Positions 21,445-25,671 of a stretch of DNA of 64,000 nucleotides are shown here, piece by piece; the first letter of the stretch is position 1; the number at the start of each line of letters is the position of its first letter. The DNA lies in assembly GCF_964019625.1 (NCBI RefSeq), contig NZ_OZ026458.1, forward strand, positions 124,001-188,000, given 5' to 3'. Origin of the DNA: Spiroplasma endosymbiont of Diplazon laetatorius (GTDB taxonomy: Bacteria; Bacillota_I; Bacilli_A; Mycoplasmatales; Mycoplasmataceae). The notes beneath the pieces are model-generated. The model had not been told where the DNA came from. It searched no databases and saw nothing but the letters and a program-made list of their open reading frames with translations. A program made the position numbers and the translations under genes.

Positions 21445-21519
21445 GGTACCATAGCCAAGAGGCTAAGGCATGGGACTGCAACTCCCTGATCGTCGGTTCG
21501 ACTCCGACTGGTACCTCCA
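21445..21519 (+). tRNA. tRNA-Cys (GCA)
   Basis: 75-nt cloverleaf, acceptor GGTACCA / TGGTACC, anticodon GCA, encoded CCA. Confidence 0.95.
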
Positions 21520-21527
21520 AAATGAAA

Positions 21528-21555
21528 CAAAGAGCAAGAAATTGCTCTTTTTTTA
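21528..21555 (+). terminator. Terminator after tRNA-Cys
   Basis: Hairpin AAAGAGCAA / TTGCTCTTT with loop GAAA and a T-run. Confidence 0.88.
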
Positions 21556-21592
21556 TTATTTTCTTAAAAAAGACACATATTCGATTTTAATT

Positions 21593-21656
21593 TGCTATAA
21601 TAAATATTGTCAATTTTGTATAAAGTTGATAAAAAAAGAACAAATTGTAATATAAT
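21593..21656 (+). promoter_or_regulatory. Tandem promoters of tRNA cluster 2
   Basis: An extended -10 TGCTATAAT (21593-21601) is followed by a second TATAAT (21651-21656) with TTGATA at 21626-21631, 19-bp spacer. The 80-bp stretch up to tRNA-Arg holds no ORF. Confidence 0.5.
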
Positions 21657-21682
21657 ATTTTTGGTTGTTTTCAGACAAAAAT

Positions 21683-21759
21683 GCGCCCTTAGATCAATTG
21701 GATAGATCGTTTGACTACGGATCAAAAGGTTAGGGGTTCGAGTCCCTTAGGGCGCGCCA
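21683..21759 (+). tRNA. tRNA-Arg (ACG)
   Basis: 77-nt cloverleaf, acceptor GCGCCCT / AGGGCGC, anticodon ACG, encoded CCA. First of nine closely spaced tRNA genes. Confidence 0.95.
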
Positions 21760-21802
21760 TTATTGAGAGCAATCAATGAATATTATTAAATATTCATTAC
21801 TT

Positions 21803-21879
21803 CGGGAAGTGGCTCAGCTTGGTAGAGCATTCGGTTTGGGACCGAAGGGTCGCAGGTTCGAATCCTGTCTTCCCGACCA
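21803..21879 (+). tRNA. tRNA-Pro (TGG)
   Basis: 77-nt cloverleaf, acceptor CGGGAAG / CTTCCCG, anticodon TGG, encoded CCA. Confidence 0.96.
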
Positions 21880-21903
21880 TTAATTTAATATTTTTTTATA
21901 TAT

Positions 21904-21979
21904 GGGCCCGTAGCTCAGCTGGGAGAGCACCTGCCTTGCACGCAGGGGGTCGACGGTTCGATCCCGTTCGGGTCCACCA
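21904..21979 (+). tRNA. tRNA-Ala (TGC)
   Basis: 76-nt cloverleaf, acceptor GGGCCCG / CGGGTCC, anticodon TGC, encoded CCA. Confidence 0.95.
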
Positions 21980-21984
21980 TATAT

Positions 21985-22061
21985 GGCGGGGTAGCTCAGC
22001 TGGTTAGAGCGCTCGGCTCATACCCGGGAGGTCAAGAGTTCAAGTCTCTTCCCCGCTACCA
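21985..22061 (+). tRNA. tRNA-Met (CAT), elongator
   Basis: 77-nt cloverleaf, acceptor GGCGGGG / CCCCGCT, anticodon CAT. The body (GCTCAGCTGGTTAGAGCG, then CATACCCG) matches the elongator Met type of Firmicutes, from memory. Confidence 0.85.
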
Positions 22062-22085
22062 TATATTTTATTGTTTTTATATTTT

Positions 22086-22162
22086 GGACCTTTAGCTCAG
22101 TTGGTTAGAGCATCCGGCTCATAACCGGATGGTCATTGGTTCGAGTCCAATAAGGTCCACCA
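22086..22162 (+). tRNA. tRNA-Ile2 (CAT, presumably lysidine-modified)
   Basis: 77-nt cloverleaf, acceptor GGACCTT / AAGGTCC, anticodon CAT. The acceptor stem resembles Firmicutes tRNA-Ile2, whose C34 is converted to lysidine by TilS to read AUA. Assignment as Ile2 rather than Met is inferred because initiator and elongator Met tRNAs are both accounted for. Confidence 0.75.
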
Positions 22163-22205
22163 TCATGATGACTCTATTATGATCATGAGGGGGCAAACAA
22201 AATAC

Positions 22206-22298
22206 GGAAGATTACCCAAGCCTGGCTGAAGGGGTCGGTCTTGAAAACCGAGAGTCGGGGAAACCCGAGCGGGGGTTCGAATCCCTCATCTTCCGCCA
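22206..22298 (+). tRNA. tRNA-Ser (TGA)
   Basis: 93-nt class II tRNA with a long variable arm, acceptor GGAAGAT / ATCTTCC, anticodon TGA, encoded CCA. Confidence 0.95.
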
Positions 22299-22305
22299 TT
22301 TTTAT

Positions 22306-22381
22306 CGCGGGGTGGAGCAGTTGGTAGCTCGTCGGGCTCATAACCCGAAGGCCGTAGGTTCAAGTCCTGCCCCCGCAACCA
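22306..22381 (+). tRNA. tRNA-fMet (CAT), initiator
   Basis: 76-nt cloverleaf with the initiator C1xA72 mismatch (CGCGGGG / CCCCGCA), the GGGCTCATAACCC anticodon arm with three G-C pairs, and encoded CCA. Confidence 0.95.
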
Positions 22382-22384
22382 TTT

Positions 22385-22461
22385 GGCCCCATAGCGAAGT
22401 TGGTTATCGCGCCTCCCTGTCACGGAGGAGATCACGGGTTCGAGTCCCGTTGGGGTCGCCA
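22385..22461 (+). tRNA. tRNA-Asp (GTC)
   Basis: 77-nt cloverleaf, acceptor GGCCCCA / TGGGGTC with one G-U pair, anticodon GTC, encoded CCA. Confidence 0.95.
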
Positions 22462-22466
22462 TTATC

Positions 22467-22542
22467 GGTTTTGTAGCTCAGTTGGTAGAGCAATTGATTG
22501 AAGCTCAATGTGTCGGCGGTTCAACTCCGTCCAAAACCACCA
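22467..22542 (+). tRNA. tRNA-Phe (GAA)
   Basis: 76-nt cloverleaf, acceptor GGTTTTG / CAAAACC, anticodon GAA, encoded CCA. Confidence 0.95.
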
Positions 22543-22557
22543 TTAGTGAAAACGAGG

Positions 22558-22580
22558 CGTCAGTGATTGACGTTTTTTTA
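22558..22580 (+). terminator. Terminator of tRNA cluster 2
   Basis: Hairpin CGTCA / TGACG with loop GTGAT and a T7 tail. Confidence 0.78.
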
Positions 22581-22611
22581 TTGAAAAATGTATAAAAAAA
22601 TCTAATTTTTA

Positions 22612-22640
22612 TTGAATTTTAAAAGTTAATATTCTATAAT
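22612..22640 (+). promoter_or_regulatory. Promoter of tRNA-Ile
   Basis: TTGAAT (22612-22617), 17-bp spacer, TATAAT (22635-22640): the best consensus promoter in the tRNA region. Confidence 0.7.
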
Positions 22641-22653
22641 TAATATTGTTTTA

Positions 22654-22730
<77 letters not shown>

Positions 22731-22744
22731 TTAAGAAAATATAT

Positions 22745-22769
22745 AACACCTATTGTGGGTGTTTTTTTT
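22745..22769 (+). terminator. Terminator after tRNA-Ile
   Basis: Hairpin AACACC / GGTGTT with loop TATTGTG and a T-run. Confidence 0.8.
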
Positions 22770-22781
22770 ATGTTAAGAAGG

Positions 22782-22787
22782 TATAAT
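22782..22787 (+). promoter_or_regulatory. -10 box for mgtA-type leader
   Basis: TATAAT 29 bp before the leader start codon; RNA would begin near 22794, just before the ribosome site AAAGAGGTGG. The -35 region is poor. Confidence 0.5.
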
Positions 22788-22804
22788 TAAAAAGGTTTAG
22801 AAAG

Positions 22805-22893
22805 AGGTGGTAAATATGAGTATTCCTTCCGTCGATCAGTTAGAAATCTTAATAAATATTAATACGGTAAGAAGTATTGCTAATTTACCACCT
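22805..22893 (+). promoter_or_regulatory. Long-range leader stem that covers the leader ribosome site
   Basis: AGGTGGTAAAT (22805-22815), which contains the leader ribosome site, is perfectly complementary over 11 bp to ATTTACCACCT (22883-22893) inside the leader ORF. The 3' arm is followed by ATTTTTG. Folding would shut leader translation and place a U-run right after the stem; a ribosome on codons 23-26 would prevent it. Confidence 0.6.
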
Positions 22894-22914
22894 ATTTTTG
22901 CGTTGTCAAAATAG
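22816..22914 (+). CDS. Putative 32-aa leader peptide upstream of MgtA-type ATPase
   Basis: Short ORF MSIPSVDQLEILI... ending NLPPIFALSK, TAG at 22912, with a strong ribosome site (AAAGAGGTGG at 22801). Codons 23-26 (Asn-Leu-Pro-Pro) form the 3' arm of an 11-bp stem whose 5' arm is the leader's own ribosome site. The ATPase starts 39 bp downstream. In enterobacteria the unrelated mgtL leader, which has Pro codons, controls mgtA; the analogy here is functional inference, not homology. Confidence 0.6.
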   Translation: MSIPSVDQLEILININTVRSIANLPPIFALSK

Positions 22915-22953
22915 GTTTTTAAGTTAGCTTTCATAAATAAGGAGAACGATGTT

Positions 22954-25671
22954 ATGAAAACTAATAAAAAAAAGTTAAATAATAATTATAATAATCAGAT
23001 TGCTGAGTTTGTAAAATTAGATCAAGCTCAAACACTTAAAAAATTAGAAATCTCAAGTTTTGGTTTAAATGAACAAGAAGTTGAGATTCAAAAAGAAAAA
23101 CACGGAGATAACAGTTTAAAAGAAAAGAAATTTAATTACTTACTATCATTTATCAAATCATTTTTTAGTCCATTCAATTTAATATTGATTGTGATTGACA
23201 CATTTAGTTTCTATCAATATGCAACAGGAAAAGATGAACAAGGAAATCCTTCATTAGAATTATCTGATTTAGTAGGTGCTTTGTTGGTTTTAATTATGAT
23301 TTTAATTAGTGGAACAATATATTTTGTTCAAGAAATTAGATCATTTAATGTTATTAAAAAAATGACATATGAAAATAAGCATATGACAAAAACAATTAGA
23401 GATGTTGATTTCAAAGTAAAAGACATTGATAATGCTAACTCAATTAAGTTAATAAAAGAACACGAACAAATTGAGAACTCAGAGTTAGTTCCAGGAGATT
23501 TAATTTATGTATCTAATGGAGACTTAATTCCAGCTGATGTTAAAGTTGTTTGATCAAATAACTTATACTTAAATCAATCATCTTTAACAGGAGAATCATT
23601 TCCAGTTCAAAAGAAAACCATTAATGAAAAAGAAAGTTATCTAGAATACCAAAATATTTGCTATATGGGAACAGAAGTTGTTTCTGGTTCAGCTTTATGT
23701 ATAGTTATTCAAACAGGACAAAAAACTTACTTTTCTGCAATTAATGATAAAGTTACAGAAAAAAGAAGTAAAAATTCTTTTGAAAAAGGTATTTGAAGAA
23801 TAACAATGTTATTAATATCATTTATGCTTGCAGTTACACCAATTGTGTTTTTGGTTTTTGGTTTAAGACCAGGTAACATTGATGAAAAATGATTTAAAGC
23901 AGCAATGTTTGCTATATCAATTGCTGTAGGTTTAACACCAGAAATGTTGCCGGTAATTGTTACTGCTAACCTATCAAGGGGTTATTCAAAAATTAAAAAA
24001 GAAAATGTTATTGTTAAAAATCTAAATGCTGTTCAAAATATGGGAGCAATAGATATTCTGTGTACTGATAAAACCGGGACAATAACAAGTGGTGAAATAA
24101 AACTTGACCACGTATTTGATATTAAAAGTCAAAAAAATGAAATGATAGAACATATTTTATATTTAAATAGTTATTTCCAATCAGGGTTTCAAAATCCTAT
24201 CGATCAAGCCGTGCTACTTAGCAAAAATATAAGTGCGCCTAATCTTGATGAATACATTAAAGAATGAGAAGTACCATTTGATTTTGAAAGAAAAATCTTA
24301 TCTGTAATCCTATCTAAAAATGGAGAAAAAGAAATTTTCACAAAAGGTGCTATCGAAGAAGTATTGAAAGTATGTAACCGTATATATATTAATGGAGATA
24401 TTGTAAAACTTACTCAAGAACATATTGATAAAATAATCAAAAAATCAGATGAGTATAATAACGATGGATTTAGAGTTATAGGAATAGCTCACAATAAATT
24501 AAGGGATGAAGATATTGAAGAAGATTTAGTTTTCTATGGGTTTGGAACATTCTTTGATGAACCAAAGAAAACTTCAAAAAAAATAATTAAAGAATTAGCT
24601 TTAAAAGGAATAGCTACTAAAGTATTAACTGGAGATAATGAAGTTATTACAAGATCTATTTGTTCTAAAGTTGATTTTAAAATTGACAAACTTTATTCAG
24701 GAAAAGAAATAGAAACAATGACAGAAGAACAATTACACAAAGCTGTTCGTAAAGGAAATGTTTTCGTTAAATTAAGTCCGATTCACAAATCAACAATAAT
24801 TAGAGCCTTAAAAGAACAAGGACACGTTGTTGGATTTATGGGTGATGGAATTAATGACGCTCCTGTTTTAAGAGAATCAGATGTTGCTATATCATTTGAT
24901 GAGGCATCAAATATAGCAAAAGAAGCTGCAGATATTATCTTAATGGAAGAATCATTACTTCCAATTAGTCATGCAGTTCATGAAGGAAGAGTTTCTTTAG
25001 CTAATATTTTAAAATATGTTAAAGTGACTATTGCCTCAAACTTTGGAAATGTACTAAGTGTACTTGTTGCATTGTTCTTAACTTTAGCAGAACCAATGCA
25101 ACCACTACACTTACTAACACAAAATTTACTGTATGACATAGTTATGTTTGCTTTTATATTTGACAAAGTGGATAAAAATTTTACAGACAAACCAAGACCT
25201 TTGAGAACAAAAAACATTATATGATTTACTGTGATTAATGGACCTGTGAGTTCTATATTTGATATTTCAACTTTCCTAGTATTGCTTTATGGATATCACA
25301 TAGTTGAACCAGGTATTGGAAGTGGAGTTACACAACCGGGAGCAGAACAATTGGCTATATTTAATGGTAGTTGATTTGTTGTTGGGTTAATGACACAAAC
25401 TGCTGTTATGCAAATGTATAGAACTGAGAAAATACCATTCATACAATCTAATGGTTCATGACAAGTTTCTGTATCAACAATATTTGTATGTGCTATGGCA
25501 ATAATTGTTCCATATGGATTCATGAGCATTCCTGCAATAAGCGGTGGAATGAGTATGGGTGTTCCAAAATGAACTTTCTTACCAATTGCAATAGGATTTG
25601 TTCTTGCATATATGTTATTGGCACAAGCTGTGAAAATGTTGTATATTAAAATTTTTAAAGAATGATTATAA
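22954..25671 (+). CDS. mgtA: Magnesium-translocating P-type ATPase (MgtA type)
   Basis: A 905-aa membrane pump that imports Mg2+. The P3B branch is indicated by the TM4 segment TPEMLPVIVTANLSRG and by KNLNAVQNMGAIDILCTDKTGT, with the phosphorylated Asp at about residue 372. LTGESFPV is the actuator motif, VLTGDNEVITRSIC and GFMGDGINDAPVL complete the headpiece, and six to eight C-terminal membrane segments follow. It lies behind a leader ORF with a regulatory stem, which suggests control by Mg2+ or a related signal. The neighbouring tRNA and leuS genes are separate transcription units. Confidence 0.94.

Follow-up and report, generated by a model that had tools for sequence, protein, structure and literature searches.

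Several described systems come close to the locus reported here. The mgtL system of Salmonella and E. coli: this features a short ORF with early proline codons, located in the 5' leader of the gene for an MgtA pump, whose translation selects between alternative RNA folds, with slow translation proposed to turn the pump on (PMC6335274, PMC6460261, PMC11282234). The mgtP/mgtQ system of the Salmonella mgtCBR operon: small ORFs here reportedly control a Mg2+ transporter by means of alternative stem-loops, with translation that is slow or breaks off early (PMC8092293, PMC6460261). The M-box (ykoK) riboswitch, RF00380: this is an RNA leader that places a transporter under the control of Mg2+. The erm-type attenuators of Gram-positive bacteria: in these a ribosome in the leader ORF sets whether region 1 pairs with region 2 (helix 1:2) or region 2 with region 3 (helix 2:3), as in the scheme that we propose below. 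The bmrBCD attenuator of a Gram-positive bacterium: here too a ribosome in the leader ORF reportedly sets 1:2 against 2:3 (PMC4191407).

Our locus resembles mgtL in its logic, but not in its peptide, RNA or terminator type. Like mgtL, it has a short ORF with an early proline ahead of an MgtA-type pump; the peptide, however, starts MSIPS (MSIPSVD in this genome) rather than bearing the EPDP of MgtL, acidic-proline motifs being found only in some other genera, and ultra-rare UCC and GUC codons take the place of the repeated proline codons (one early proline against four). Further, the leader's own ribosome site constitutes one arm of a hairpin, and whereas mgtL uses Rho-dependent termination, we find a hairpin with a U-run and no Rho above the family cut-off in the genome: the best match to the Rho profile, at 47 bits against a cut-off of 509, is probably another ATPase, which makes a Rho mechanism of the mgtL kind unlikely. 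The mgtP/mgtQ ORFs concern other genes and positions, and the acidic residues reportedly needed in mgtQ are not constant here. With the M-box our leader would share Mg2+ control of a transporter; RF00380 was not detected above its gathering score in 60 family genomes, in a search that recovered it from B. subtilis as a control, and the leaders have no Rfam match. In the erm-type and bmrBCD systems, unlike here, the signal is an antibiotic. Among open-licence PMC papers we found no mollicute leader peptide of such a kind.

The locus belongs to the 979-kb genome of the Spiroplasma endosymbiont of Diplazon laetatorius, which uses translation code 4; the window, that is the whole stretch of DNA analysed, covers 64,000 nucleotides of it. 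A tRNA operon, a TATAAT, a strong ribosome site, the leader ORF and mgtA follow one another, with 39 nt between the end of the leader ORF and the start of mgtA. The features are as follows (forward strand throughout; the basis of each is given in brackets).

22782-22787, forward: TATAAT, -10 promoter hexamer, 34 nt ahead of the leader start codon (sequence)
22798-22831, forward: region 1, 5' arm of helix 1:2, made up of the ribosome site and codons 1-6 of the leader (pairing, z-score, arm swap, covariation)
22816-22914, forward: leader ORF of 32 codons plus stop TAG, MSIPSVDQLEILININTVRSIANLPPIFALSK (sequence; orthologous leaders in relatives)
22825-22833, forward: conserved codons Pro4 CCT, Ser5 TCC and Val6 GTC, proposed slow-decoding site (alignment, codon rarity, tRNA set)
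22865-22900, forward: region 2, 3' arm of helix 1:2, with ATTTACCACCT at 22883-22893 and the U-run at 22895-22899 (pairing, covariation, T enrichment)
22871-22894, forward: region 2 as 5' arm of helix 2:3 (pairing, covariation)
22912-22932, forward: region 3, which starts at the leader stop codon and supplies the 3' arm of helix 2:3, with its core at 22920-22932 (covariation, arm swap)
22923-22965, forward: helix 3:4 (22923-22936 with 22952-22965), covering the start codon and ribosome site of mgtA (weaker support)
22939-22944, forward: AAGGAG, Shine-Dalgarno of mgtA (sequence)
22954-25671, forward: mgtA, magnesium-translocating P-type ATPase of 905 aa in code 4 (TIGR01524 equivalog; PDB matches)

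Transcription would start near 22794, about 11 nt ahead of the leader ribosome site, as predicted from the hexamer, and almost every leader locus has a perfect TATAAT 30-40 nt ahead of its ATG. The pump had been called MgtA-type from the letters alone, and the profile bears this out: its product scores 847 bits against TIGR01524, the NCBIfam equivalog for Mg2+ P-type ATPases, whose cut-off is 611 bits, and its best PDB matches are MgtA. Directly upstream lies an 11-gene tRNA operon (21445-22730) that has two hairpins resembling terminators, one within the cluster ahead of tRNA-Ile (22554-22576) and one at 22745-22763. Elsewhere in the genome (G000:C1:840252-840438; L097, L105) two adjacent tRNAs have the anticodons CCA (Trp) and UCA; ARAGORN labels the latter SeC, but it presumably serves as Trp for UGA, as code 4 predicts. 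The end of the tRNA operon at 22730 could suggest that the element downstream is just an unregulated intrinsic terminator or insulator behind it. We hold this to be very improbable: the operon has the two hairpins of its own, the TATAAT promoter lies between these and the leader, and the element is kept in relatives with other upstream sequence.

In this genome the leader ribosome site, AGGTGGTAAAT (22805-22815), pairs at 11 of 11 positions with ATTTACCACCT, which begins at base 2 of codon 23 (AAT), ends with codon 26 (CCT) and is followed by an A and then by the T5 run. The earlier note had described this perfect pairing with the T5 run and a leader of 32 codons, and both are exact as given. 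The 11-bp stem that it drew is likewise real but too short: pairs between an A-tract and the U-tract (22798-22803 with 22895-22900) lengthen it outward, and further in, codons 2-6 take part in another helix (22819-22831 with 22865-22878). To this picture we add the rival helix 2:3, the A/U-tract through which 1:2 comes to resemble a terminator, and the family-wide occurrence of the leader. The fold of 22794-22900 has a z of -3.1, with none of 200 shuffles equally stable, and the duplex of the leader start with the leader 3' half has a z of -4.9; given these scores and the recurrence of the pairing with altered bases in relatives, the stem is not a product of chance.

The leader ORF overlaps helices that resemble a terminator and an antiterminator, with a hairpin and U-run present. 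In helix 1:2 the final third of the leader pairs with the leader's ribosome site and first codons; in helix 2:3 this final third pairs instead with the spacer between the leader stop and mgtA; in helix 3:4 the spacer pairs with the start of mgtA. As region 2 is common to both, 1:2 and 2:3 are mutually exclusive. These helices were examined by dinucleotide shuffles, by base-pair counts on an unfitted MAFFT alignment and by arm swaps among 28 representative species; 1:2 and 2:3 pass all three, while 3:4 is weak. For 1:2 the duplex z lies between about -4 and -7 at most loci. In helix 1:2 both sides are changed in 27 cells, against 11 in shuffles (covariation 0.202 against 0.157, 0/500), and in helix 2:3 in 44, against 23 (0.266 against 0.167, 0/500), although these counts come from kindred sequences and so overstate independence. 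The covariation of both arms that had been put forward as a check on the stem is hence observed, the 1:2 pairing persisting through other bases in relatives. When arms are exchanged between species, the native pair falls in the best 5% in 12 of the 28 for 1:2 (p = 3e-9), in 19 for 2:3 (p = 8e-19) and in 4 for 3:4 (p = 0.05). T is enriched right after the 1:2 arm relative to other leader positions (p = 5e-5). A simple terminator scan, which considers short loops only, does not report the 1:2 hairpin, whose loop is long for an intrinsic terminator. In leaders of genus g3 (L067, L077) the 2:3 arms, GATTAAATAAT / ATTATTTAATC, pair perfectly over 11 bp, and after them comes a small hairpin that covers the Shine-Dalgarno of mgtA.

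We compared the regions upstream of MgtA-type pumps across the family. The leader is present in 20 of 20 genomes of the genus, where it has 24-32 codons and opens with M-x-[IVL]-P, in most cases MSIPS; in Mesoplasma and one sister genus, MSIPS leaders are 26 codons long. A leader also precedes the pump in the majority of the other genera that we examined in the family, with unlike peptides in the same place and a similar ribosome site, such as MATSPLPLEDSPESGY..., MTNAITPEPEPGEL..., MAEQVNSMSDNPEPY... and MTIVNAVVGDFPDPES.... An open frame of 23-44 codons and a strong ribosome site are retained in nearly all leader loci; beyond the ribosome site and first codons no constant core extends across genera. 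No clear leader was found in some loci of the citri-type genus g8, nor in one of two g11 genomes, and leader status is uncertain in g4 and g6. The g8 pumps concerned are L055, L057-L059 and L061-L065; loci of that genus have other competing complementary stretches before the gene, GATTTAGGA / TCCTAAATTT and CCTAAAT...ATTTAGG, perhaps a degenerate or different switch. A covariance model built from 26 leaders and run on 79 genomes matches mgtA in 24 of them, once per genome, and also finds one member absent from the training set (G065, E = 0.014); a single stray match lies away from mgtA (G009, E = 0.09). An exact-block pattern scan of GTDB species returned only two mollicute matches and two isolated ones outside mollicutes; the latter match the ribosome site and MSIPS start in MAGs of Verrucomicrobiota (L047) and Ardenticatenales (L049), probably by chance. 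The middle of the leader peptide evolves almost freely (25 non-synonymous against 10 synonymous single steps). Hence, translation of the ORF is argued from its start, ribosome site, early codons and open frame, and on these sequence features it appears to be translated.

The earlier note had ascribed the switch to ribosomes pausing at Pro25-Pro26, which would hold the stem open. Pro-Pro is a known weak pause and in this genome sits in the 3' arm, but the alignment rules it out as a conserved pause: near relatives have LPS, LPL or LSL, so that the pair becomes PS, PL or SL in the closest clade, and distant leaders do without a proline pair, while the pairing persists with other bases. We give this explanation next to no credence. 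The conservation expected of codons 25-26 thus fails, and what is kept is Pro4 with the neighboring rare codons. Of that note's larger claim, a translated-leader attenuator before an MgtA-type pump, the self-sequestering stem, its covariation and its conservation stand, and the Pro-Pro pause falls away.

The early codons are conserved with their third bases, ATT CCT TCC (GTC). Pro4 is found in all 20 leaders of the genus, as a single proline, and in other genera a few leaders lack an early proline. Alignment A1 shows no variation in TCC, third base included; this codon makes up just 0.6% of the serine codons of ORFs in the window. Among 30 representative leaders, half of which form one homologous clade, codons 2-18 contain 28 TCC against 0.2 expected, at positions ranging from 2 to 14 in several genera; the 16 leaders outside that clade alone carry 14. 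More generally, the C-ending share of four-fold-box codons is 30% in leader codons 2-18, 12.5% from codon 19 to the end of the leaders and 3.0% in mgtA (clade-I loci). Plain nucleotide composition is not supported as the source of the rare codons, C not being enriched in the two-fold NNY codons of leaders. G-ending NNR codons are enriched too, so that the bias is not only one for C after uridine-34. Early TCC triplets also occur in frame +2 (the T of the preceding codon with the CC of Pro); hence, an additional role at the nucleotide level is possible.

Another rival is a metal or metabolite riboswitch in which the ORF is incidental and an aptamer includes the conserved GAGGTG...ATGAGTATTCCTTCC. 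The 5' block is indeed conserved at the nucleotide level, and alternative helices exist. This account nevertheless seems improbable to us, given the retained frame and ribosome site, the lack of a cross-genus core beyond these and the first codons, the lack of any Rfam match, and a codon bias that is specific to certain boxes and hence not producible by RNA structure alone.

The tRNA set suggests why the rare codons may be slow. UGA and GCU are the only serine anticodons found in the genome, so UCC is readable here only by tRNA-Ser(UGA); TrmD and EF-P are both present. High Mg2+ tightens the binding of ternary complexes to the ribosome (PMC5311929), and together with the tRNA set and codon rarity this suggests that the rare codons may be decoded slowly, and more slowly at low Mg2+. 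Proline codons have been linked to Mg2+ (PMC6335274), and a proline beside a rare codon points the same way. In the main rival to this view, pertinent mostly to genera with acidic-proline motifs, the attenuator is the same and the nascent chain is the sensor: early proline and acidic residues would destabilize the ribosome at low Mg2+, the rare codons merely helping. SDSPES, EDSPES, DNPEP, TPEPEPGE, DFPDPES and GPES near the N-terminus in other genera recall EPDP, the MgtL motif at which ribosomes drop off at low Mg2+ (PMC11282234), and in Salmonella mgtQ it is reportedly the acidic residues and not the proline codon that matter (PMC8092293). Against it, the genus and Mesoplasma mostly have MSIPS without a constant acidic residue, the TCC is invariant down to its third base, and the middle residues are nearly free to change; we regard a nascent-chain sensor as rather doubtful.

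The effect of ribosome position was modeled with partition functions, blocking the footprint of a ribosome with codon 5 in its A site. In this genome the expected pairs of 1:2 fall from 30 to 0 and those of 2:3 rise from 0.6 to 10.6; across 28 loci the rise of 2:3 has p = 0.0009. In genera with P-x-S(UCC) at codons 12-14, a ribosome stalled there leaves 1:2 intact, and a second ribosome queued on the start codon must be assumed. Control could alternatively be exerted on translation, with 3:4 closing the mgtA start and 2:3 opening it in the erm-like manner, and 3:4 can be seen in this genome as well as in several lineages. Over the 28 loci, however, the mgtA ribosome site is not consistently opened by a leader stall (median paired fraction 0.60 with no ribosome, 0.58 when stalled and 0.55 at the stop), which makes control of transcription the better reading. 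With the weak swap result of 3:4, these paired fractions leave release of the mgtA start unsupported as a general switch, and we consider control at this level unlikely.

The combined evidence argues with reasonable confidence for a ribosome-controlled attenuator of mgtA: probably an uncatalogued switch, by which the pump is turned on when ribosomes slow at unusually rare codons. Based on ribosome footprints, early slowing should favor 2:3, and a free run or no translation should favor 1:2. With no ribosome on the leader, region 1 would pair with region 2, and the resulting long hairpin, with its A-tract before and U-run after, would end or strongly hinder transcription, leaving the pump off. 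Ribosomes running through the whole leader would mask region 2 first and region 3 on reaching the stop codon; 2:3 would thereby be barred, 1:2 would reclose behind them, and the pump would again be off. A ribosome slowed at Pro4-Ser5(UCC)-Val6(GUC), or in many other genera at Pro-x-Ser(UCC/UCG), would cover region 1 and let region 2 pair with region 3, whereupon transcription would continue into mgtA and the pump would be on. Both termination and the effect of ribosome position are thus predictions from sequence. Low Mg2+ would be the natural signal, a role suggested by the regulated gene being an MgtA equivalog, since wobble of uridine-34 with cytosine by a sole tRNA, next to proline, should slow when Mg2+ is short; slow wobble decoding would then be the sensor. 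On this basis we advance, tentatively and as a possibility, that mollicutes sense Mg2+ via the speed of superwobble decoding: ultra-rare C-ending four-fold codons (mainly UCC), read by U34-only tRNAs early in mgtA leaders, may allow the ribosome of these Rho-less cells to flip an intrinsic terminator for which the ribosome site of the leader itself supplies the material.

Mollicutes serve as minimal-cell models, and to our knowledge little is known of how they adjust ion uptake. The element described here would be a cis-acting Mg2+ pump switch found family-wide, and the signature in its codon usage suggests decoding as the sensor. If this is true, mgtA leaders with the logic of mgtL, but unlike it in peptide and RNA, exist beyond enterobacteria, and the U34-only decoding of reduced genomes would be usable as a signal.
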